Of a stretch of DNA of 64,000 nt, positions 28,164 through 40,680 are shown in pieces. Under the pieces are notes generated by a model. It was given only the letters and a program-made list of their open reading frames with translations. It made no database searches and was not told where the DNA came from. This stretch comes from Anaeromyxobacter diazotrophicus (GTDB taxonomy: Bacteria > Myxococcota > Myxococcia > Myxococcales > Anaeromyxobacteraceae). The position numbers and the translations under genes are program-made. Numbering within the stretch: position 1 is the stretch's first letter; each line of letters begins with the position of its first letter. The DNA lies in NCBI RefSeq assembly GCF_013340205.1, contig NZ_BJTG01000003.1:248001-312000 (forward strand). The letters are read 5' to 3'.

Positions 28164-29465
28164 ATGACCGACGCCCCCACGCCCGCCTCGCCGGGCCGCG
28201 GCTACCGCTGGCTCGTGCTGCTCGCCTGCAGCGGCGCGATGTTCGGCAACTACTACGTCTTCGACGCGCTCTACCCGGTCACCCCGCTCCTCGAGCAGGC
28301 GTTCGGGTTCACCGGCGAGCAGGTGGGGCTCCTCGACACCTCCTACAACGTGGCGGCGCTCCTCACGCTCATCGCCGGGGGCGTCCTCGTGGACCGGCTC
28401 GGCACCGCCCGCTCGGCGGTGCTCTTCGGCGCCGTCGGCGCGGCCGGCAGCGCGCTCATCGCCTTCCTGCCGGCGCTCGCCCCCGGGCACGCCGCGCTCG
28501 GGATGATGGCGGGCCGCTTCGTGCTCGGCGTCGGCTCGGAGTGCTTCATCGTCGCGGCCACCACCGTGGTCGGCCGCTGGTTCAAGGGGCGCGAGATCTC
28601 CTTCGCGCTCGCCCTTCAGCTCCTCATCGCGCGCCTCGGCTCCTACGCCGCCGACTGGTCTCCCAACCTGCGCGCGCTCTTCACCTCCTGGCAGCCGCCG
28701 CTCCTCCTCGCGGCGGCGCTCGGGGGCGTCTGGCTCGCCCTGGCGATCGTCTACGCGGCGCTCGAGCTCCACGCGGCGCGCCGCTACGGCACCGCGCGCG
28801 CGGGCGCGACCGACAAGCTCGTCCTCGCCGACCTGGTCCGCTTCGACCGCGCGTACTGGTGGGTGGTCGGCCTGTGCGTCGCGTTCTACGCCACCATCTT
28901 CCCGTTCCGCACCTTCGCGAACCTGTTCCTCACCGACTACCACGGCGTCTCGAACGAGACCGCCGGCAGCCTGAAGAGCGTCCTGCCGCTGCTCTCCATG
29001 ATCGGCATGCCCATCTTCGGCTTCGTCGCCGACCGGATCGGGAAGCGCGCGCTGCTCATGGCGGTCGGGTCGGCGCTGCTCGTGCCGCCCTTCCTGCTCA
29101 TGGCCTACACGCACCTCCCGCTCCAGCTCTCGATGGCGCTGCTCGGGCTGGCCTTCGCGCTGGTGCCGGCGGTGCTGTGGCCGGCCGTGACCTACCTCGT
29201 CCCGGACGCGCGGCTCGGCTCGGCCTACGCGCTCATGACCTTCTGCCAGCAGGTGGGCTGGGCGGCCATGAGCTGGGGGCTGGGCCGGGTGAAGGACGCC
29301 GGCGGCGCGAGCGCGGCTCACCCGGCGGGCTGGCTGCCGGTGATGTGGATGCTGGCGGCGCTCGCCTGCGCCGGGTTCGCCTTCTCCTTCCTGCTCTGGC
29401 GCTCCGAGCGCGGCGGCCGCGGGCACGGCCTCGAGCGCGCGCAGGTGCGCCCCGAAGCGGCCTGA
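28164..29465 (+). CDS. MFS transporter
   Basis: A 433-residue, 12-helix major facilitator. The N-half loop 2-3 motif reads GGVLVDRLGTARS, and the C-half counterpart FGFVADRIGKRALL. The overall pattern, with FDALYPVTPLLEQAFGFTGEQVGLLDTSYN cut by aromatic residues at the start of helix 1-2, is reminiscent of MFSD1-like members, but no substrate can be named. The TATCGT box at 28149-28154, 9 bp before the ATG, again suggests a very short or no leader. The C-terminus is cytoplasmic. Confidence 0.85.
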   Translation: MTDAPTPASPGRGYRWLVLLACSGAMFGNYYVFDALYPVTPLLEQAFGFTGEQVGLLDTSYNVAALLTLIAGGVLVDRLGTARSAVLFGAVGAAGSALIAFLPALAPGHAALGMMAGRFVLGVGSECFIVAATTVVGRWFKGREISFALALQLLIARLGSYAADWSPNLRALFTSWQPPLLLAAALGGVWLALAIVYAALELHAARRYGTARAGATDKLVLADLVRFDRAYWWVVGLCVAFYATIFPFRTFANLFLTDYHGVSNETAGSLKSVLPLLSMIGMPIFGFVADRIGKRALLMAVGSALLVPPFLLMAYTHLPLQLSMALLGLAFALVPAVLWPAVTYLVPDARLGSAYALMTFCQQVGWAAMSWGLGRVKDAGGASAAHPAGWLPVMWMLAALACAGFAFSFLLWRSERGGRGHGLERAQVRPEAA

Positions 29466-29503
29466 GGGGCAGGCGCCCGTCGCCCGGGCCCTCCCGCGGG
29501 CGT

Positions 29504-29532
29504 TTGCCTTTTCGATCCCGCTTCCGTATGCT
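29504..29532 (+). promoter_or_regulatory. Sigma-70-type promoter of the pomYZX operon
   Basis: TTGCCT (29504-29509), 17-bp spacer, TATGCT (29527-29532); four of six matches in each box. It is the best promoter match in the 155-bp gap after the MFS gene and leads to a leader of roughly 80 nt. Confidence 0.5.
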
Positions 29533-29553
29533 GCCGATATCTCAGGCAAGATC

Positions 29554-29574
29554 TCGGGATCATTCGGCGATCCC
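29554..29574. promoter_or_regulatory. Inverted repeat in the pomY leader
   Basis: CGGGATC (29554-29560) and GATCCCG (29568-29574) around a 7-nt centre, ~20 bp downstream of the predicted promoter. It could be an operator or a leader hairpin. Confidence 0.4.
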
Positions 29575-29620
29575 GGACGAGGCGCAGGGTCGTGGCGGGG
29601 CGTGGGCGCAGGGAGGTCGG

Positions 29621-31390
29621 GTGAGCGGGAGTCCCGAGGAGCTGCTCAGGAGCGCGCTCGAGAAGGTCATCTTCTTCGAGTGCCGGGTGGCGAGCCTCGA
29701 GCATGAGCTCGAGTCGGCGCGCGCCGCGGCGGCGCGCGCCCGGGACGAGGCCGGCGCGGCGCGGCGGCGCGAGGGCGAGCTGGAGGCGCAGCTCGCGCAG
29801 CTCAAGGGCGCGCAGGCGGCGGGCGCGGCGCAGAGCGGCGAGCTGGCCGAGCGCGTGCGGCTGCTCGAGGCGGAGCGCGAGCGGTTCCTCTCCGGCATGG
29901 TCGAGAGCGCGCGGGTCGCGGGCGCGCCCGCCGGCGAGGACGACGACGCCGGCAGCGCCTCCGAGCTGGCCGGCTTCATCGCGGAGCTGCGGGCGGAGAT
30001 CGAGGCCCTGCGCGCGTGGAAGCGCGAGGCGGAGGCGCGGGGGTACGCGCCGGGCGAGGCCGCGAGCGCGGATTCGAACGCGACCGCGACCTCGACCTCG
30101 ACCTCGACCTCGACCTCGACCTCGACCGCGAACGCGAACGCGAACGCGAACGCGGCGCCGCGGACCGGGCAGCCTTCGCCGGCCGGCGCGGGGGCGGGGC
30201 GCGGCGCCGTGGCCCTCCCAGCGATGGCGACCGCGTTCGAGCAGTCCGGCCGCATCACCGTCTCCGCCGCCGACGCGCGCGCGCTGCCGCGCTTCTCCAC
30301 CCGCTCCGAGCGCGCGCTCTACGAGTCCTGCCTCGACGACCTCGGCTCGCGCGAGCCGGGGACCCGCCGCCGCGCCGCGGACGGCCTGCGCGCGCTCGGC
30401 TCGCGGGGCGCCGCGCCGCTGGTGGCCGCCGCGCTCGGGCGCGAGGCCGACGCCGAGGTGAAGGCCTCGCTCCTGGCCGCGCTCGGCGCCCTGGCCGAGG
30501 CGAGCGCCTCGGACCTCGCGGTCCGCGAGCTCGCCGACCCGCGCCCGGCGGTGCGGGCGGCCGCCCTCGACGCGGTGAGCGCGCTCGCCGGTCCGCAGGC
30601 GGTCCCGGCGCTCTCCGGCGCGCTCGCCGACGCGAGCCCGCTCGTGCGGCGCCGCGCGGTGGTGCTGCTCGGCTTCGCGCGCGGCGAGCCGGCCGACGAC
30701 GCGCTCGCCGGCGCGCTCGCCGACCGCGACGCCGGCGTCGCCCGCGCCGCCGCCTCGGCGCTGGCGGGCCGCCCCAGCGCCCGGGCCCAGGGCGCGCTCG
30801 CCCGCGCGCTCGAGCACCGGGAGCCCGCGGTGCGCCGCGCGGCGGCCCTCGCCACCGGCCGCTGGTCGGGCGAGGCGGTCGACCCCGCCGCCCCCGAGGC
30901 GGAGCGCCGCCGCGCAGCCCGGCGCATCAGCGAGAAGCTGCTCGAGGTGGACGGCGAGGCGCTGCGGAGCGCGGTGACGAAGGTCGCCGCGGCTGTGGCC
31001 CACGCTCCCCGTCCCGCTCCCCCGGTGGGGGAGAGGGAGCCGATCCTCGCTGCGCCGGCTGCCCGCCGCGGTCCGCGCGCTCCATCCGCCTCTCCCGCGC
31101 AGGGAGAGCCTCGCGTCCCTGCTCGCGCACCCTCGCAGGGAGAGGGCGTGCGCCATGCGCTCGCCGCGGCGGCCGCGATGAAGTCGGCGGTGGCCGTCGC
31201 CGCGCCGGAGGAGCGCGCGCCGCTCGCCGCGGCCGCGCTGGCCGAGGTGCGCGCGGCGCTGCGGGGCCGGACCGCCGAGGAGCTGTCGGCCGCGCTCGGC
31301 GCGGAGCGCCTCACGATCGAATCCACCCTGCGCGCGCTCGTGACGCAAGGGCGGCTGGTGGCGCGCGGGCCGCGCTTCTTCATGAGCTAG
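29621..31390 (+). CDS. pomY: PomY-like division-site positioning protein (coiled coil + HEAT repeats)
   Basis: A 589-residue protein. GTG at 29621 has an excellent ribosome site (GGGAGG). The order is N-terminal coiled coil (~5-145), a low-complexity TS/NA-repeat linker (~157-180), HEAT repeats (~225-430, segments such as DPRPAVRAAALDAVSALAG and DASPLVRRRAVVLLGFARG), a Pro/Ala linker (~460-510) built from G/C palindromes, and a C-terminal winged-helix-like segment (EELSAALGAERL...ALVTQGRLVARG). M. xanthus PomY is known to combine coiled coil, HEAT repeats and a Pro-rich region, and in M. xanthus it acts with PomX and PomZ to place the FtsZ ring at midcell. Adjacent pomZ- and pomX-like genes support the call. 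The C-terminal winged-helix-like part is not something I recall from PomY. Confidence 0.75.
   Translation: MSGSPEELLRSALEKVIFFECRVASLEHELESARAAAARARDEAGAARRREGELEAQLAQLKGAQAAGAAQSGELAERVRLLEAERERFLSGMVESARVAGAPAGEDDDAGSASELAGFIAELRAEIEALRAWKREAEARGYAPGEAASADSNATATSTSTSTSTSTSTANANANANAAPRTGQPSPAGAGAGRGAVALPAMATAFEQSGRITVSAADARALPRFSTRSERALYESCLDDLGSREPGTRRRAADGLRALGSRGAAPLVAAALGREADAEVKASLLAALGALAEASASDLAVRELADPRPAVRAAALDAVSALAGPQAVPALSGALADASPLVRRRAVVLLGFARGEPADDALAGALADRDAGVARAAASALAGRPSARAQGALARALEHREPAVRRAAALATGRWSGEAVDPAAPEAERRRAARRISEKLLEVDGEALRSAVTKVAAAVAHAPRPAPPVGEREPILAAPAARRGPRAPSASPAQGEPRVPARAPSQGEGVRHALAAAAAMKSAVAVAAPEERAPLAAAALAEVRAALRGRTAEELSAALGAERLTIESTLRALVTQGRLVARGPRFFMS
30091..30150. 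repeat. Hexanucleotide microsatellite in the pomY-like gene
   Basis: Six perfect copies of CTCGAC (30091-30126) followed directly by four copies of CGCGAA (30127-30150). They encode Ser-Thr and Asn-Ala dipeptide runs in the linker between coiled coil and HEAT repeats. Because the unit is two codons, copy-number change would alter linker length without shifting the frame. Confidence 0.9.
31017..31108. repeat. Two intragenic palindromes in the pomY-like gene
   Basis: CTCCCCC-GGT-GGGGGAG (31017-31033) and CTCTCCC-GCGCA-GGGAGAG (31090-31108); a third half-site (CGCAGGGAGAGGGCG) ends near 31148. All lie in frame in the Pro/Ala linker and match the palindrome family seen elsewhere in the window. 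Confidence 0.75.
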
Positions 31391-33614: not shown

Positions 33615-35555
33615 ATGAGCCGCGCCCCGCTCTTCGAAGGCCTGACCGAGGTGCGGGGCACGCTCGGCGCGGATCTGCGCGGGCAGCTCACCGCGCCGAT
33701 CACCGGCGACGCCGGGCTGACCCGGGAGCACGCGGGCGCCATGGCCATCGCCCTCGCCGAGCTGGGGGCGCTGGGCGAGACCGCGGGCCTCGGCCAGCTC
33801 GAGCTCGTCGTCGCCGGGGCGCCCACGCGGCAGCTCGTGGCGGCGCCCCGCGCCGGCGCGTTCCTGATGGTGGCGGTCGATCCCGCCAAGCCCACCTCGC
33901 GGGTGGAGAAGGCGCTGCGGGACGGGTCGCCCGCGCCGGCCTCCGGCCCGGCCTCCTCCGCGCCGCCGCCGCTCCCGGTCGCGCCCGCGCAGCGCGATCC
34001 CTGGGCCGCCCTGCGCCTCGCCCTCGCGCGCGGGCAGCTCGCCGAGGCGGCCGCCTGCCAGCGCGACCTGGGCCAGGCGCCGCCGGGGGCCGGCGCCGAG
34101 CCGCTCGAGCCGGCCGAGCGCGAGCGCGCGCTGGCCACCCTCCTCGACGCAGTCGCGACCGCCCAGGCGGGCGACGTGGTCGGCTGCGCGCGCAAGCTGC
34201 AGGATCTGGCGCGCCCGGCGCAGGCGAACCTCTCCTTGCGCTGGGCCGCCCACCACTGGACCGGGCGCGCCGCGCTGCAGGGCGGCAGCCTCGACGCCGC
34301 CCGGACCCACGCCAAGGAGGCGCTGACGCTGTCGCGCCAGCTCGACGGCGCCGCCAAGGCGGTGAGCCAGTGGTTCGCCGGGGAGCTGCTGTCGCGGAGC
34401 GCCGACGCGAGCCAGGGGCTGCGCTGGCTGGCCGAGGCGCGGGCCGCGTTCGCGCGGCTGGGCGAGGGCTGGGCCGTCGCGCGCACCTGGCTGGCCGAGG
34501 CGCGCATCCACGCCGCGGGCCACGACGAGGCGAGCGCGGCCGGGGCGGCGCGGCGCGCGCTCGAGGCGGACGCCACCTTCGAGGAGCCGGCGCTGTTCCT
34601 CGCGCGCCGCGCCCTCGCCCGGGGAGACCTGGCCGCTGCCGAGCTGGAGCTCCCGCCGCAGGGGAGCGTGGCGGCCGGCTGCGCCCGCGCGCTCCTCGAC
34701 GTCGTGCGCGCGGGCCAGGTCACGCAGGCCGAGGTGACCGAGCTCGTCCACCAGGAGGAGCTCCCGCCTTCGGCCGCCACCCTGCACGCGCTGGAGCGGC
34801 TCGCCAACGCAGCCCCCACCTTCGCCCAGGCGCGCGCGGCGCTCGGGTGGGCGCTCCTGCGCAGGGGGAAGTACGCCGAGGCGAGCGTGGTGCTCCGGGT
34901 GCTCCTCGGTCAGCAGCTCGCGCCGGCGGTGCGCGCCTCGGTGGAGGCGGCCCTCGCCTGCGCCACCCGCGCCCTGCCCGCCCCCGAGGGCGTGCCGGTG
35001 CTGGCGCGGAGCGCCCCGGCCACTCCCGCGCCGGCCCCCACCCCGCGGCCGGGGGCGGTCTTCTCCGGCCAGCTCAGCGTCTTCGCGCTCCCCGACCTGC
35101 TCGAGTTCCTCCGCGCCGGGAAGCGCACCGGGCTCCTCACCTTCAGCGGCGCGGCCGGGCTGGGCTCCTTGCGCTTCAACGCCGGCCGGATCACCGGGGC
35201 GAGCTCGCCCGCGGCGCCCGGGCTGGGGCAGCTCCTCGTGCAGGAGCGGAAGGTCACCCCGCTCACGCTCCGCGCGGCCGCCTCCGCGCAGGACGACTCC
35301 GACGAGGCGCTCGGCGCGCGGCTGGTGCGCGACGGCGCGGTGCCCGTCGCCGCGGTCGAGGACGCGCTCCGGCGCGGCGTCGAGCTCGCGGTGCGCGAGC
35401 TGGTCGGGTGGAAGGAGGGCGAGTTCGCCTTCGAGGAGACCGCGCCCGCGCCGCCGGCGCGGCCCGGCGTCGAGCTGGATCCCCAGGGCGTGCTCCTCAA
35501 CATCTTCAAGGAGCTGGACGAGTCGAGCCGGCCCGCCGCCGCTCGCCAGCCCTGA
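33615..35555 (+). CDS. Roadblock-like / TPR-like / DUF4388 (PATAN) signalling protein
   Basis: A 646-residue cytoplasmic protein. Residues ~1-110 (EGLTEVRGTLGADL ... LELVVAGAPTRQLVAAPRAG) have the roadblock/LC7 layout also seen in the next two genes. Residues ~125-455 are Ala/Leu-rich paired helices resembling TPRs (segments GRAALQGGSLDAARTHAKEA and LGWALLRRGKYAEASVV). After a Pro linker, ~480-640 is a DUF4388/PATAN domain (GQLSVFALPDLLEFLRAGKR then TGLLTFSGAAGLGSLRFNAG), common in delta-proteobacterial and cyanobacterial signalling. It is the first gene of the operon, 9 bp before the kinase gene, and probably acts in the same pathway. Start chosen for position behind the promoter; the ribosome site is weak. 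Confidence 0.8.
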   Translation: MSRAPLFEGLTEVRGTLGADLRGQLTAPITGDAGLTREHAGAMAIALAELGALGETAGLGQLELVVAGAPTRQLVAAPRAGAFLMVAVDPAKPTSRVEKALRDGSPAPASGPASSAPPPLPVAPAQRDPWAALRLALARGQLAEAAACQRDLGQAPPGAGAEPLEPAERERALATLLDAVATAQAGDVVGCARKLQDLARPAQANLSLRWAAHHWTGRAALQGGSLDAARTHAKEALTLSRQLDGAAKAVSQWFAGELLSRSADASQGLRWLAEARAAFARLGEGWAVARTWLAEARIHAAGHDEASAAGAARRALEADATFEEPALFLARRALARGDLAAAELELPPQGSVAAGCARALLDVVRAGQVTQAEVTELVHQEELPPSAATLHALERLANAAPTFAQARAALGWALLRRGKYAEASVVLRVLLGQQLAPAVRASVEAALACATRALPAPEGVPVLARSAPATPAPAPTPRPGAVFSGQLSVFALPDLLEFLRAGKRTGLLTFSGAAGLGSLRFNAGRITGASSPAAPGLGQLLVQERKVTPLTLRAAASAQDDSDEALGARLVRDGAVPVAAVEDALRRGVELAVRELVGWKEGEFAFEETAPAPPARPGVELDPQGVLLNIFKELDESSRPAAARQP

Positions 35556-35564
35556 CCGCGACCG

Positions 35565-36896
35565 ATGCCCGACGCCAACGCCCGCGAGCCCTCGGACCTC
35601 GCCAAGCTGGTCGGCACCCGGCTCGGGAACTACCGGCTGGAGCGCCTGGTCGGGCGCGGGCGCATGGGCGCGGTGTACCTCGCGCAGGACGAGGCGCTCC
35701 TGCGGCCCACCGCCGTGAAGGTCCTCGCCTGGAGCGCCGCCGAGGCGCGCGGCCACGATCCGGTGAAGTGGTTCCTGGCCGAGGCGCGGCTGGTGGCCCG
35801 CATCAACCACCCGCGCGTGGTGCAGATCTACGGCGCGGCCCGGCAGGGCGACCGCTGCTACATCGCGATGGAGTACGTCGCCGGCGCCTCCGCGGAGGCG
35901 CTGGTGGCCGAGTGCGGGGCGCTCCCGCCCGCCCGCGCGACCGACCTCCTCGTCCAGGCGGCGGCGGCGCTGGAGGCGGCCCACCGCTGCGGCGTGGTCC
36001 ACCGCGACGTGAAGCCGGCCAACCTCCTCATCGGCCCCGAGGGGTCGGTGAAGCTGGGCGACTTCGGGATGGCGCTCGGCTCGGCCGGCATCCGCACCGC
36101 GCACGCGCACCTCAGGGTCGGGACGCCGTACTACACCGCGCCCGAGATCTGGCGGGGCGAGGCGGCCACGCCCGCGTCGGACCTCTACTCGCTCGGCGCG
36201 ACCTACTTCCAGCTCCTCACCGGCCGGCCGCCGTACCCCGCCCACGACGTGGCGGCGGTGGAGCAGGCGCACCTCGGCGCGGCGGTGCCGGATCCGCGCG
36301 AGCTCGTCCCGGGCCTGCCCGCCGCGTGCGCCGCGCTCGCGATGCGCGCCCTGGCCAAGTCGCCGCGCGAGCGCCCGGCGTCGGCCGAGGCGCTCGGCAA
36401 GGAGGCGCGGCGGGTGCTGCGGGAGCTCGCGGCCGCGCCGCCCCCGCCGCCCGAGCCGGCGCGGGCCGCCGCGCCGCCGCGGGCCACGGCCGCGCCGGTC
36501 CGGACGGCTCCCAGACCTGCCGCGGGGGCGGCCACCGGCCGGACCGGAGGAAGAGGGGAAGGCGTCATGACGCTGCTCGCGACCATCTCGAGCCTGCCGG
36601 AGGTGAAGGGCGCCGTGCTCGGCACCTCGGCCGGCGCGTTCGTGGACACCGCCGGGGAGGCGGACGGGGAGGCGGTGGCGGCGGTGATGGGGTTCATGTG
36701 GACGGCGCTGAGCGAGGCCGGCGAGCAGCTCGGGCTCGGGGCGCTCGGCCGCATCTCGCTGTCGGGCGCCACCGGCGCCTGCGTGGCCACCGCCGAGCCG
36801 GACGGCACCGTGCTGTCCGCGCTGGTCGAGCCGGCCGGGTCGCTCGTCGCCGTCGAGAAGGTCCTCGACGACGCCCTCTCGCGGAACGGAGCGTGA
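35565..36896 (+). CDS. Ser/Thr protein kinase fused to a roadblock/LC7 domain
   Basis: A 443-residue Hanks-type kinase. It has the Gly loop GRGRMGAVYLA, catalytic Lys52 (AVKV), Glu73, the catalytic loop HRDVKPANLL (146-155), DFG (166-168) and APE (192-194), all intact. The HRD Arg suggests activation-loop control. There is no transmembrane helix. A Pro/Ala linker (~285-330) leads to a roadblock/LC7 domain (335-443). An internal ATG at 36567 (codon 335) follows GGAGGAAGAGGGGAAGG, a strong ribosome site, and starts exactly at the roadblock domain. The gene may therefore make both the fusion and a free roadblock protein. It is followed by a separate roadblock gene after 1 bp. Confidence 0.9.
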   Translation: MPDANAREPSDLAKLVGTRLGNYRLERLVGRGRMGAVYLAQDEALLRPTAVKVLAWSAAEARGHDPVKWFLAEARLVARINHPRVVQIYGAARQGDRCYIAMEYVAGASAEALVAECGALPPARATDLLVQAAAALEAAHRCGVVHRDVKPANLLIGPEGSVKLGDFGMALGSAGIRTAHAHLRVGTPYYTAPEIWRGEAATPASDLYSLGATYFQLLTGRPPYPAHDVAAVEQAHLGAAVPDPRELVPGLPAACAALAMRALAKSPRERPASAEALGKEARRVLRELAAAPPPPPEPARAAAPPRATAAPVRTAPRPAAGAATGRTGGRGEGVMTLLATISSLPEVKGAVLGTSAGAFVDTAGEADGEAVAAVMGFMWTALSEAGEQLGLGALGRISLSGATGACVATAEPDGTVLSALVEPAGSLVAVEKVLDDALSRNGA

Positions 36897-36897
36897 C

Positions 36898-37638
36898 ATG
36901 GAGACGATCCTCCAGGGCCTGTTGGAGCTGCAGGGCGTGAGCGCGGCGCTGGTCCTCGACGCGGGGGGCCGGGTGACCGCCCACCGCGGCGGGGCCATGC
37001 ACGACCGCGCGCTGTGCGAGCAGGTGAGCGGCAACCTGATGAAGGCCGTCGAGACCGTCCAGCTCCAGCAGGCGGACTGGGACGCGATCGGGGCGCAGTT
37101 CACCGACGGCCGGCTGCTCCTGCGCAACCTCGGGGAGGGCGTGGAGGGCGGGCACGTCCTCGCGGTCATCGCCGACGCGCGGCTCAACGCCTCCTTCGCG
37201 ACCGTCGCGCTGCGCGTGGCGGCGAACAAGCTGCGCCGGGTGCTGGCGGGCGGGGCGCCGGCGTCGTCCGCCTCCTCGGCGGTGGCCTCGTCGGTCGCGG
37301 CGCCGCTCTCCGGCTCGCAGGTCTCGCCGGCCGACTCGAAGGTGCTCTCGAGCGCCACCGGGCTCAGCTGGTCGCGGTCGGGCTCCTCGAGCGCCGCCGT
37401 CTCGCGCGTGGCGGCCGCGGACCCCGCCTCGATGGCGTTCCTCACCCGCTGCTCCAAGGAGCTGGCGCGGCACGTGGGGCCGATCGCGAAGGTCTTCGTG
37501 CAGGAGGCGGTTCAGCGCGTCTGCCCGGAGGCGCCCTTCTCCCTGCCCCGCGCCGGCGCGCTGGTCGACGACCTGGCGAGCCAGGTCGAGGACCCCGACG
37601 ACCGGTCGAAGTTCCGCGCCGCGCTCGCCAAGCGCTAG
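36898..37638 (+). CDS. Roadblock/LC7 domain protein with C-terminal helical domain
   Basis: A 246-residue protein. Residues 1-115 are a roadblock domain (LLELQGVSAALVLDAGGRVT ... LLLRNLGEGVEGGHVLAVI). A Ser/Ala-rich linker (~118-170) is followed by a ~65-residue domain (FLTRCSKELARHVGPIAKVF...DDRSKFRAAL) like the small LARxxGPIA domains found behind kinases and cyclases. Roadblock proteins usually regulate small Ras-like GTPases (MglB with MglA), but no GTPase gene is in this operon. It follows the kinase stop by 1 bp. Partners are inferred from context only. Confidence 0.82.
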   Translation: METILQGLLELQGVSAALVLDAGGRVTAHRGGAMHDRALCEQVSGNLMKAVETVQLQQADWDAIGAQFTDGRLLLRNLGEGVEGGHVLAVIADARLNASFATVALRVAANKLRRVLAGGAPASSASSAVASSVAAPLSGSQVSPADSKVLSSATGLSWSRSGSSSAAVSRVAAADPASMAFLTRCSKELARHVGPIAKVFVQEAVQRVCPEAPFSLPRAGALVDDLASQVEDPDDRSKFRAALAKR

Positions 37639-37665
37639 CCCGTCCTACCCCAGAGAGGATCGCCC

Positions 37666-38583
37666 ATGTCCATCGCCCACGCCGTGAGGAGCAGCCTCGG
37701 CGCCAAGATGTCGCTGAAGCTGGCCGCGCTGCTGCTGGTGCTGACCACCGTGGCGGCGCTCGTCATCACCTTCCGCCAGACGCGGCAGCTGGAGGAGCTG
37801 ACGCTGGAGAAGGCGCGCCTGGCCGCGGCGCTCGGCGCCCGCCAGTACGGCGAGGTCCTGGAGGCCGCCGTCGACGACGGGACGCTCACCGTCAGCGACG
37901 CGTTCGACCGGAACTACGTCGAGATCAAGGGGTACGACTGGGGGCAGCACCGCAAGTACCACACCCGCTACGACGCGGTGCTCGACCGCGCGGTGCTCGT
38001 GTTCCAGGACCGCATGCTCGACCAGGACGACTTCGTGTTCGCGATCGGCGTGGACGAGAACGGCTACCTCCCGGTCCACAACAGCCGGTTCCAGCGCCCG
38101 ATCACCGGCGACCCGGAGAAGGACCTGGCGGGCAACCGGTCGAAGCGCATCTTCGACGACCCGGTCGGCCTGGCGGCGGCGCGCAACCTCGAGCCGACCC
38201 TGGTGCAGGTCTACCGGCGCGACACCGGCGAGACGATGTGGGACGTCTCGGCGCCGGTCCTGGTGAAGGGGAAGCACTGGGGCGCCTTCCGCGTGGCGGT
38301 GTCGATGGCCCGCATCGCCGCCCGCCAGCGCGAGCTGTTCTTCACGCTGCTGGCCGGCTTCGCCCTGTTCGCCGTGGTCACCAGCGGCGCCATGTACCTC
38401 CTCGTCGGGCAGGCCATGAAGCCGGTCGTCGCGCTCACCGCGACCGCCGACCAGATCAGCCTGGGCGAGGAGCTCGACACGCCCATCAAGTCCGACGCCG
38501 TCGACGAGATCGGGCAGCTCACGAAGACCATCGACCGGCTCCGCGTCAGCATGAAGGGCGCGATGAGCCGCCTCGGGCAGTGA
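37666..38583 (+). CDS. Membrane sensor: periplasmic Cache-like domain + HAMP, no output domain
   Basis: A 305-residue protein. Helix 1 (~15-37) anchors a periplasmic domain (~40-225) with the Cache-like signature DENGYLPVHNSRFQRPITGD...NRSKRIFDDPVGLAAARN and RRDTGETMWDVSAPVLVKGKHWG, as in some chemoreceptors. Helix 2 (~228-250) is followed by a HAMP domain (MKPVVALTATADQISLGEELDTPI). The protein then ends, so it has no methyl-accepting, kinase or cyclase module. It must signal through partners, plausibly the kinase and roadblock proteins encoded just upstream. Ligand unknown. Confidence 0.85.
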   Translation: MSIAHAVRSSLGAKMSLKLAALLLVLTTVAALVITFRQTRQLEELTLEKARLAAALGARQYGEVLEAAVDDGTLTVSDAFDRNYVEIKGYDWGQHRKYHTRYDAVLDRAVLVFQDRMLDQDDFVFAIGVDENGYLPVHNSRFQRPITGDPEKDLAGNRSKRIFDDPVGLAAARNLEPTLVQVYRRDTGETMWDVSAPVLVKGKHWGAFRVAVSMARIAARQRELFFTLLAGFALFAVVTSGAMYLLVGQAMKPVVALTATADQISLGEELDTPIKSDAVDEIGQLTKTIDRLRVSMKGAMSRLGQ

Positions 38584-38596
38584 AAGGAGCGACGTC

Positions 38597-39229
38597 ATGA
38601 AGACCACGATCCGCGGGTACGCCCTCCTGCTGCTCCTCGCCGCCGGCGCCGCGCTCCCCGGGCCGGCCGCCGCGCAGGCGCGGCCGGGCACCTCGGCCGA
38701 GCTCCTGACCGCGCAGGACCGGGAGATGCTGGCGCTGGCGAACGAGTTCGCGCGCCGCTGCGGCGAGGTGCTCGAGCGGTGGATCGCGAAGGGCGAGGTG
38801 AGCGAGGAGCGGCTCTTCGCCTCGCTCTACTACCCGATCCCGAAGACCGACCCGCCCAAGTTCAGCACCGACTGGGACAAGCTGTCGGACCGCGACGTCC
38901 TCCCCATCGAGGAGGCGATCCTCGCCCGGTCGCCGGCCATCTTCTTCACGGTCATGGTCGACCGCCACGGCTACCTGCCCACCCACGACCAGCGCTACTC
39001 GCTGCCGCTCACCGGCAACCCGGCGAGCGACCTCGTCAACAACCGGACCAAGCGCATCTTCAACGACCGCACCGGGCTCGCGGCCGCCCGCAACGAGGCG
39101 CCCTTCCTCGTCCAGCGCTACCAGCGCGACACCGGCGAGTCGATGGTGGACCTCTCGGTGCCGCTCAACCTCCGCGGCCGCCACTGGGGCGCGGTGCGGA
39201 TCGGCTACCGGTCGGTGGACGGGCGCTGA
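38597..39229 (+). CDS. Secreted Cache-like domain protein, paralogue of the upstream sensor
   Basis: A 210-residue protein. A signal peptide (YALLLLLAAGAALPGPAAA) leads to one periplasmic domain with the same signature as the upstream sensor: DRHGYLPTHDQRYSLPLTGN, NRTKRIFNDRTGLAAARN and QRDTGESMVDLSVPLNLRGR. There are no membrane anchors after the signal and no HAMP. It could be a soluble ligand-binding or competing partner of the membrane sensor. The gene is 13 bp behind the sensor with a ribosome site (AAAGGAGCG) and ends 2 bp from the convergent sthA-like stop. Confidence 0.8.
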   Translation: MKTTIRGYALLLLLAAGAALPGPAAAQARPGTSAELLTAQDREMLALANEFARRCGEVLERWIAKGEVSEERLFASLYYPIPKTDPPKFSTDWDKLSDRDVLPIEEAILARSPAIFFTVMVDRHGYLPTHDQRYSLPLTGNPASDLVNNRTKRIFNDRTGLAAARNEAPFLVQRYQRDTGESMVDLSVPLNLRGRHWGAVRIGYRSVDGR

Positions 39230-39231
39230 GG

Positions 39232-40680
39232 TCAGGCGGTCTTCGGCACCGCGCTCACCGCCGGCGGCTGGAGCTGCGCGCCGGGCAGGCCCAGCCGCTT
39301 CATCTCGGCGCGCGCGTCGTACGCCGCATACTTGTACGCCTCGCCCAGCGTCGGGTAGTTGAACACCGCCTGGGTGAAGTAGTGGATGGTGCCGCCGAGC
39401 GCCATCACCGCGCTGCCGAGGTGCACCAGCTCCGAGGCGTGCGGGCCGATGCAGTGCACCCCGAGCAGCTCGCCGTCCTGCGGCGAGGCGACGAGCTTCA
39501 GGAACCCCACCGCCTCGCCGATGAGGTTGGCGCGGGCGTTCTCGGTGAGCGGCGTCTTGCCCACCACGTAGGGGATGCCCTTCTGCTTGAGCGCCTCCTC
39601 GGTGGCGCCCACCGACGACACCTCGGGGATGGTGTAGATGCCCACCGGCAGGAGCTCGGCCACCTTCTGCTGGTACTTCTTCCCCAGCGCGTGGGTCATC
39701 GCGACGCGCCCCTGCTCCATGGAGGTGGAGGCGAGGCCCGGGAAGCCGATGAGGTCGCCCGCCGCGTAGATGTGCGGCACCTTCGTCCGGTAGTGCTCGT
39801 CCACCTCGAGGTAGCCCTTGTCGGTGGCGGAGAGCCCGGCCGCGGCCAGGTCGAGCGACTCGACGTTGCCTTGCCGCCCGGCCGCCACCAGCACCTTCTC
39901 GGCCACCAGCCGCGAGCCGTCCGAGAGCGTGACGAGCACGTCGCGGTCGCCCACCTCGAGCCGCTGGGCGCGGCGCTCCTGGTGCATGTCGATGCCTGCC
40001 AGCGCGAACAGGTCCTGCATGGCGATCGACAGCTCGGCGTCGAGCCAGGGCAGGAGGCGCGGCTTCGAGTCGATGATGGAGACGTGGACGCCCAGCGCCG
40101 CGAACATCGAGGCGTACTCGCAGCCCGCCACGCCGCCGCCCAGGATGGCGAGCGAGCGCGGGACGGTGTCGAGCATCAGGATCGAGTCCGAGTCGTAGAC
40201 GTGCTGGTGGTCGAACGTGTACTGCGGCGGGTGCGAGGGCCGGGTGCCGGTGGCGAGCAGCACCACCTCGGCCTGGATGTCCTGGAAGCTGCCGTCGGCC
40301 AGCGTGATGCGGACGGTGTGCGCGTCGGCGAAGCTCGCCACCCCGCGGAACTGCTCCACCCCGGCGGCGTTGAGCCGGTTGCGGATGCGCGAGTGCTCGC
40401 GGGCGGTGACGAGCCCGCGGCGGCCCATGAGCTCGGGGATGGTCACCGTCTCGGAGACGCTGAACTCGATGCCGTGCGCGTCGCGCGACCGCGCCTGCTG
40501 GATGGCGAGGGCCGTCTCGCGCAGGGCCTTGGAGGGGATGGTGCCGGTGTTGGCGGAGGCGCCGCCGGGCACCGCCTCCTTCTCGATCAGGGCGACCTTC
40601 TTCCCGTAGGAGGCCGCCTGCACGGCGCCGTGCTCGCCGGCCGGGCCCGATCCGATGACGACCACGTCGTAGTGGAGCAT
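39232..40680 (-). CDS. sthA: SthA-like pyridine nucleotide transhydrogenase (flavoprotein)
   Basis: A 482-residue flavoprotein of the lipoamide-dehydrogenase superfamily. It has the FAD motif GSGPAG (10-15), second nucleotide motif LGGGVAGCEYASMF with Asp after the second strand (IIDSKPR), AAGDL and a dimerisation domain. The redox region reads GGASANTGTIPSKALRE, so both positions of the redox-active Cys pair are absent. E. coli SthA has GGGCTHWGTIPSK, lacking only the second. It should therefore move hydride between NAD(H) and NADP(H) without disulfide chemistry. The acidic residue hints at NAD binding at this site, but direction is unknown. It is divergent from the dap operon. Confidence 0.85.
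   Translation of the reverse strand: MLHYDVVVIGSGPAGEHGAVQAASYGKKVALIEKEAVPGGASANTGTIPSKALRETALAIQQARSRDAHGIEFSVSETVTIPELMGRRGLVTAREHSRIRNRLNAAGVEQFRGVASFADAHTVRITLADGSFQDIQAEVVLLATGTRPSHPPQYTFDHQHVYDSDSILMLDTVPRSLAILGGGVAGCEYASMFAALGVHVSIIDSKPRLLPWLDAELSIAMQDLFALAGIDMHQERRAQRLEVGDRDVLVTLSDGSRLVAEKVLVAAGRQGNVESLDLAAAGLSATDKGYLEVDEHYRTKVPHIYAAGDLIGFPGLASTSMEQGRVAMTHALGKKYQQKVAELLPVGIYTIPEVSSVGATEEALKQKGIPYVVGKTPLTENARANLIGEAVGFLKLVASPQDGELLGVHCIGPHASELVHLGSAVMALGGTIHYFTQAVFNYPTLGEAYKYAAYDARAEMKRLGLPGAQLQPPAVSAVPKTA

Follow-up and report, generated by a model that had tools for sequence, protein, structure and literature searches.

Five consecutive genes of Anaeromyxobacter diazotrophicus probably (at roughly 0.6) encode a transmembrane signalling system split into two pieces, in which the HAMP domain of a receptor devoid of an output domain would signal in trans to a STAC-like four-helix domain and thence to a kinase/roadblock complex. 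At the genome level, STAC-like domains are strongly associated with HAMP receptors that have no output domain. The parts of the block are ordinary; what appears to stand out is the pairing of an output-less HAMP receptor with a STAC-like adaptor on varied outputs, of which the literature searched contains no description in connection with Ser/Thr kinases or with roadblock proteins. Nothing relevant was retrieved on DUF4388/PATAN combined with roadblock or on roadblock kinases in Anaeromyxobacter.

Layout, domains and conservation of the block

The block locates in a stretch of 64,000 nucleotides (in the following termed the window; G000:C3:248001-312000) from a host genome of 4.83 Mb, the named relatives of which are Anaeromyxobacter species and MAGs. 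A preceding sequence-only reading of the window had claimed five consecutive genes; these were confirmed, all on the forward strand and separated by 9, 1, 27 and 13 bp (Table 1).

Table 1. Genes, predicted domains and further features of the block (positions in the window)
Feature	Position	Strand	Description or basis
Gene 1	33615-35555	+	Roadblock-like N-terminus, helical/TPR-like middle, C-terminal DUF4388
Gene 1, roadblock-like domain	33615-33935	+	hhalign, not Pfam
Gene 1, DUF4388	about 35064-35525	+	Pfam E 4e-22
Gene 2	35565-36896	+	Predicted Hanks-type Ser/Thr kinase, linker, roadblock
Gene 2, Ser/Thr kinase	about 35631-36398	+	Pfam Pkinase E 1e-46
Gene 2, fusion point	36399-36566	+	In relatives: extra ~330 residues (AAA_22-like), stop codon, start of separate roadblock gene
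Gene 2, putative remnant start	36545-36569	+	Purine-rich GGAGGAAGAGGGGAAGG, then in-frame ATG at 36567
Gene 2, roadblock	36567-36893	+	Pfam E 4e-4 as separate piece
Gene 3	36898-37638	+	Roadblock, low-complexity linker, STAC-like four-helix domain
Gene 3, roadblock	about 36898-37245	+	AF2 topology, Foldseek/VIA to MglB
Gene 3, STAC-like four-helix domain	about 37420-37635	+	AF2; VGPIA motif
Gene 3, VGPIA	37474-37488	+	Helix 1/helix 2 turn, residues 193-197
Gene 4	37666-38583	+	TM1, periplasmic single Cache, TM2, HAMP, no output domain
Gene 4, Cache	about 37774-38343	+	AF2 and structural matches
Gene 4, HAMP	38401-38547	+	Pfam E 5e-7
Gene 5	38597-39229	+	Signal peptide, soluble periplasmic Cache domain
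Convergent gene	39232-40680		Pyridine nucleotide transhydrogenase-like flavoprotein (named by inspection); 2 bp past the end of gene 5

Gene 1 had been described as a roadblock/TPR/DUF4388 protein. DUF4388 was recovered, and the N-terminal roadblock was recovered by comparison with the gene 2 roadblock family (hhalign probability 98 %, E 2e-13) as its sole support, Pfam yielding no roadblock match at this N-terminus; the TPR match stayed below the threshold (Pfam E 0.018).

Gene 3, taken by the same reading for a stand-alone roadblock protein, was found to carry an overlooked C-terminal domain. As a whole it has no significant match in Pfam, NCBIfam or, by phmmer, in the PDB; the Pfam E-value for roadblock is 0.03 (1.5e-6 in the best relative), and the predicted N-terminus matches MglB (Foldseek E 1.3e-4; VIA Z 9.5 over 90 residues). 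The AlphaFold2 (AF2) model is composed of the roadblock N-terminus (moderate confidence), a linker without order and a C-terminus in which four helices are confidently predicted over ~70 residues (helices 176-193, 197-208, 216-227 and 233-244; pLDDT about 88-97). This predicted C-terminus agrees with STAC domains, which span 60-90 residues with four helices in two hairpins and carry LGPx(x)A between helices 1 and 2, represented here by VGPIA. All 12 aligned sequences possess the motif as (L/V)GP(I/M/F)(A/S), most of them with V at the first position; the gene 3 relatives in the genome contigs were found with an alignment, a single-sequence scan having given none. The top PDB profile match is AF1502, significant neither with whole gene 3 (E 0.67) nor with the domain alone (E 0.05), and a broader STAC-like profile did not recover AF1502 from the PDB. 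This match is noteworthy because AF1502 shares an operon with AF1503, which belongs to a receptor family without effector whose sole cytosolic part is HAMP (PMC4834066), and because Af1502 is itself not linked to other STACs by BLAST, HMMER or HHblits, its homology having been argued on the basis of its place in the genome, the pattern of its helices and the common LGPx(x)A motif (PMC4834066). The gene 3 C-terminus, which resembles STAC by motif, length, helix count and context, is therefore termed STAC-like.

The claim that gene 4 encodes a Cache-HAMP sensor without an output domain was borne out. Its structural model has a single-Cache fold (as WalK, DcuS and CitA) and matches the sensors WalK, DcuS, CitA and DctB (Z 9.7-10.8), and its architecture (TM1-sensor-TM2-HAMP, nothing after) is of the Af1503 type. 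In each of the 12 orthologues the protein ends 24-26 residues past the beginning of its HAMP DExG motif, so that the missing output does not reflect a truncation. Output-less HAMP proteins are rare in the window genome, as gene 4 is the only HAMP protein (HAMP found at E 0.01) encoded in an open frame of <450 codons. Gene 5 proved to be the secreted paralogue it had been read as, with 44 % identity across the gene 4 sensor; its Cache fold is assigned by this identity alone. Elsewhere in the genome, ~12 consecutive HAMP domains are encoded by a single open frame of 1857 codons (G000:C11:39991-43188).

Full-length relatives of gene 3 were detected in 12 of 24 family genomes, the window genome counted. 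The order gene 1, kinase, roadblock, gene 3, gene 4, gene 5 is retained on one strand on all six sufficiently long family contigs (G022, G013, G020, G007, G010 and G005; those of G020 and G007 start within gene 1), and shorter family contigs contain the 3' part of the block (roadblock and genes 3 to 5). The genes are thus not scattered in relatives, as had been considered, and the conservation looked for was found: order and strand are kept in the 12 genomes, the flanks are not. None of the window's flanking genes is conserved at the blocks of relatives, and a 38 % ParA match in L029 sits elsewhere. Absence of the block from several closed family genomes indicates an accessory cassette. In a same-genus MAG (G001:C72; L033, 13271-19360), genes 4 and 5 of the block are present as a tandem of two pairs, and gene 3 is followed by an inserted DUF6976 gene.

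The most distant block (G093; same phylum, different order) consists of genes for DUF4388, roadblock, roadblock-STAC, Cache-HAMP (54 %) and secreted Cache (57 %), the kinase being absent. Two other distant blocks, G076 (roadblock / roadblock-STAC / kinase / heme-Cache-HAMP) and G094 (DUF4388-roadblock / roadblock-STAC / PilJ-HAMP), retain the same pieces and differ in their sensors. A promoter and terminator scan was empty, which is uninformative at the G+C of this DNA. At ~30020-30150, inside the open frame 28541-31390, the window contains a short-period repeat of alternating Ser/Thr and Ala/Asn codons.

STAC-like domains and receptors ending in HAMP

A STAC-like profile search yielded matches in 17 of 156 Myxococcota genomes and in 7 of about 396 Pseudomonadota genomes. 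The loci, all outside the family five-gene block, were picked by the STAC-like domain or the gene 3 profile, not by HAMP; proteins were classed as HAMP-only when HAMP ended within 45 residues of the C-terminus, the model having been trained on ordinary HAMP proteins of the window genome. The genomic coupling to effector-less HAMP receptors that marks STAC domains was found here as well: a HAMP-only protein is encoded nearby at 20 of 22 STAC-like loci versus none of 34 random 13-kb regions (nominal Fisher P 3e-13, which overstates independence because many loci are interrelated, e.g., the kinase-STAC genes within the Anaeromyxobacter family, and because in four the HAMP gene, though near, is on the opposite strand). 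For the G009 and G022 loci, the HAMP-only genes were revealed by profile search. The remaining two of the 22 loci have no HAMP protein in the region scanned, and a 23rd (G057), which starts at a contig end and in which the scan found neither part, was excluded. Among the loci scanned, the six Pseudomonadota loci found last, which were located without reference to HAMP, all possess a HAMP-only protein. Pfam confirmed HAMP in 13 of 13 distant receptors (E 1e-3 to 1e-12, one under the cut-off), whose sensors are mostly Tll0287-like heme-Cache, otherwise PilJ, Cache_3-Cache_2 or window-type Cache. On the output side, the partners to which the STAC-like domain is attached are Ser/Thr kinases, TIR (G566), cyclase-like (by inspection) and DUF4388-like (G550, by inspection) proteins as well as roadblocks; kinase-STAC fusions beside output-less heme-Cache-HAMP proteins occur in G183, G047, G055, G195, G322, G386 and G384.

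Two of the proteins encountered deserve separate mention. In G566 (C16, ~122-124 kb; L198, 5070-6620), a TIR protein with a C-terminal STAC-like domain is encoded directly after an output-less heme-Cache-HAMP protein and is possibly under transmembrane control. In G076 (C148; L129, 1762-2604), a STAC-like domain forms the C-terminus of a small membrane protein with several passes, which on inspection looks DoxX-like; a HAMP gene is absent from its vicinity. Fusions of SLC5, STAC and kinase were not found in 67 Myxococcota genomes, the long frames inspected being without LGPx(x)A.

For the window block, the following scheme is proposed. Binding of a small ligand in the periplasm by the gene 4 Cache dimer would shift the protein-terminal HAMP, which would contact the STAC-like domain of gene 3 in trans. 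The roadblock domains of genes 1, 2 and 3 would assemble into a scaffold, through which the signal would reach the gene 2 kinase and alter its activity or substrate access, with the roadblock-DUF4388 product of gene 1 serving as adaptor or target. The secreted gene 5 product, also a Cache protein, perhaps binds the same ligand, as soluble co-receptor or competitor of gene 4. No GTPase would be required. Each of these steps, i.e., HAMP-STAC contact, roadblock assembly and kinase control, is one that we infer. The sequence-only reading had let the HAMP sensor signal through the kinase/roadblock complex; trans signalling to the neighbouring gene products is likely on comparative grounds, but the STAC-like domain of gene 3 is a likelier receiver than the roadblock or kinase domain itself.

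A possible, though rather unlikely, alternative is that the gene 4 HAMP signals to a roadblock or DUF4388 platform, the STAC-like domain having a different job and the kinase being an optional client. This would suit the kinase-free G093 block and two operons of the window genome (C3, ~77-80 kb, L026 8028-10741; C4, ~314-317 kb, L028 8411-10921), each encoding DUF4388-roadblock, roadblock and output-less dCache-HAMP proteins (in the C4 operon, Pfam detects dCache, not HAMP) and neither a GTPase, a kinase nor an evident STAC-like domain. As the latter is not evident there, roadblock or DUF4388 could receive the signal in these two operons. Most STAC-like proteins beside HAMP-only receptors, however, are kinase-STAC, TIR-STAC or cyclase-like-STAC proteins without roadblocks, which leaves STAC-like domain and HAMP as the common denominator. 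Signalling from HAMP to the STAC-like domain remains the preferred reading for the block. The kinase-free block and the STAC-free operons show that neither kinase nor STAC-like part is always required.

The chances are about even that the block exemplifies a bacteria-wide class of split receptors, in which a HAMP-ended sensor addresses a STAC-like plug-in adaptor in trans and thereby varied outputs (kinase, TIR, cyclase-like, DUF4388-like, roadblock). If so, the window block would represent the roadblock-scaffolded form of the class, and Ser/Thr kinases that are otherwise soluble would receive transmembrane input with neither a histidine kinase nor a GTPase involved. How receptors that end in HAMP pass on their signal has been a question ever since Af1503, which serves as the structural model of HAMP; the association found here points to a candidate domain as receiver, whose interface is small, and connects such receptors with Ser/Thr kinases as well as with TIR and roadblock proteins. 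From it, NO-binding heme-Cache-HAMP proteins are also predicted to have a partner, specifically a STAC-like gene beside the heme-Cache-HAMP gene of Pseudomonas azotoformans, the product of which has HAMP as cytoplasmic part (PMC12889525); the available preprint text mentions neither roadblock nor operon partners.

Roadblock proteins without a GTPase and comparison with known systems

In line with the earlier claim that the five genes include no GTPase, a phmmer search with the genome's MglA detected no Ras-like GTPase, neither anywhere in the window nor in those related blocks, from two phyla, that were examined. The genome encodes one MglA (195 aa; C3, ~518.4 kb), ~230 kb from the block and adjoined by an MglB-like roadblock. 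The presence of this module, together with the classical function of roadblock proteins as regulators of NTPases (PMC4316618), could suggest that the block's roadblocks act MglB-like on the distant MglA, with kinase and sensor tuning that GTPase module. This is improbable, however, given that MglA is already adjoined by its own MglB, that the related blocks of two phyla are free of GTPases, that the window roadblocks are divergent and score under the Pfam cut-off, and that 328 of 749 MglB homologues in a 2014 survey are likewise uncoupled from MglA, none of them characterised (PMC4316618). A GTPase-independent role is possible for many such uncoupled roadblock proteins.

Several known systems share parts with the block. 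The archaeal pair Af1503/Af1502 (Archaeoglobus fulgidus) likewise combines a transmembrane sensor ending in HAMP with a close partner gene for a four-helix domain containing LGPx(x)A, so that the pathway, previously suggested to be possibly undescribed, is not wholly so in principle. Af1502, however, is a stand-alone STAC, whereas the STAC-like domain of the block is fused to roadblock (at other loci the fusion partner is a kinase, a TIR or a cyclase-like domain); moreover, the block is bacterial, uses a Cache sensor and has no transporter seen in it. In SLC5-STAC histidine kinases (CbrA, CrbS), STAC is similarly positioned between membrane part and signalling output, but transporter and histidine kinase form a single polypeptide, while the block keeps its receptor apart from the output and has a kinase predicted to be Hanks-type. 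The actinobacterial conservon (CvnABCD) also unites a HAMP membrane sensor and an MglB-type roadblock in one operon; its histidine kinase-like sensor CvnA, CvnC and the Ras-like GTPase CvnD have no counterparts in the block, where neither an adjacent CvnD-type GTPase nor a CvnA-like sensor was found. With the MglA/MglB/MglC polarity module, the block shares the roadblock fold (the predicted gene 3 N-terminus matching MglB), but no MglA-type GTPase adjoins its roadblock genes, and the domains with which the roadblocks are combined are kinase, DUF4388 and STAC-like ones. The sCache_heme (DUF3365/Tll0287) TM-HAMP proteins (PMC12889525) resemble gene 4 in having HAMP as sole cytoplasmic part; sCache_heme is the commonest sensor at the distant STAC-like loci, whereas the window sensor is a heme-less Cache.

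Origin of the kinase-roadblock fusion

Gene 2 qualifies by its sequence as a Hanks-type Ser/Thr kinase, all catalytic motifs (GRGRMG, K52, HRDVKPAN, DFG and APE) being found. Its roadblock gives a Pfam E-value of 0.013 within the whole protein and, as a separate piece, still scores under the cut-off; the relatives' genes match. The kinase-roadblock fusion noted earlier holds for the window, but not as a design of the family: relatives possess a kinase gene of ~640 codons with an AAA_22-like domain C-terminal to the kinase (Pfam E 8.5e-13 and 3.5e-10) and, directly after it, a separate roadblock gene of 107 codons. The fusion is limited to the window lineage and is to be regarded as a recent loss of the intervening AAA domain and the gene boundary, not as an ancestral design.

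The Walker A lysine is substituted in all five relatives checked (GSGRST, GSGRSV, ESGRTT, HSGCGA), so that the lost AAA domain, apparently degenerate, was probably already inactive as ATPase; a search of the window genome (without positive control) did not find the domain elsewhere. Regulation of the ancestral kinase's AAA domain by the roadblocks, with the window version as a degraded remnant, might be implied by the position of AAA_22 between kinase and roadblock gene in relatives; it is very improbable in view of the probably inactive ATPase and of the intact and conserved window kinase and remaining genes.

The ATG at 36567 aligns with the start codons of the relatives' separate roadblock genes and, together with the purine-rich stretch preceding it, is probably the leftover start of the formerly separate gene, which is perhaps still in use.
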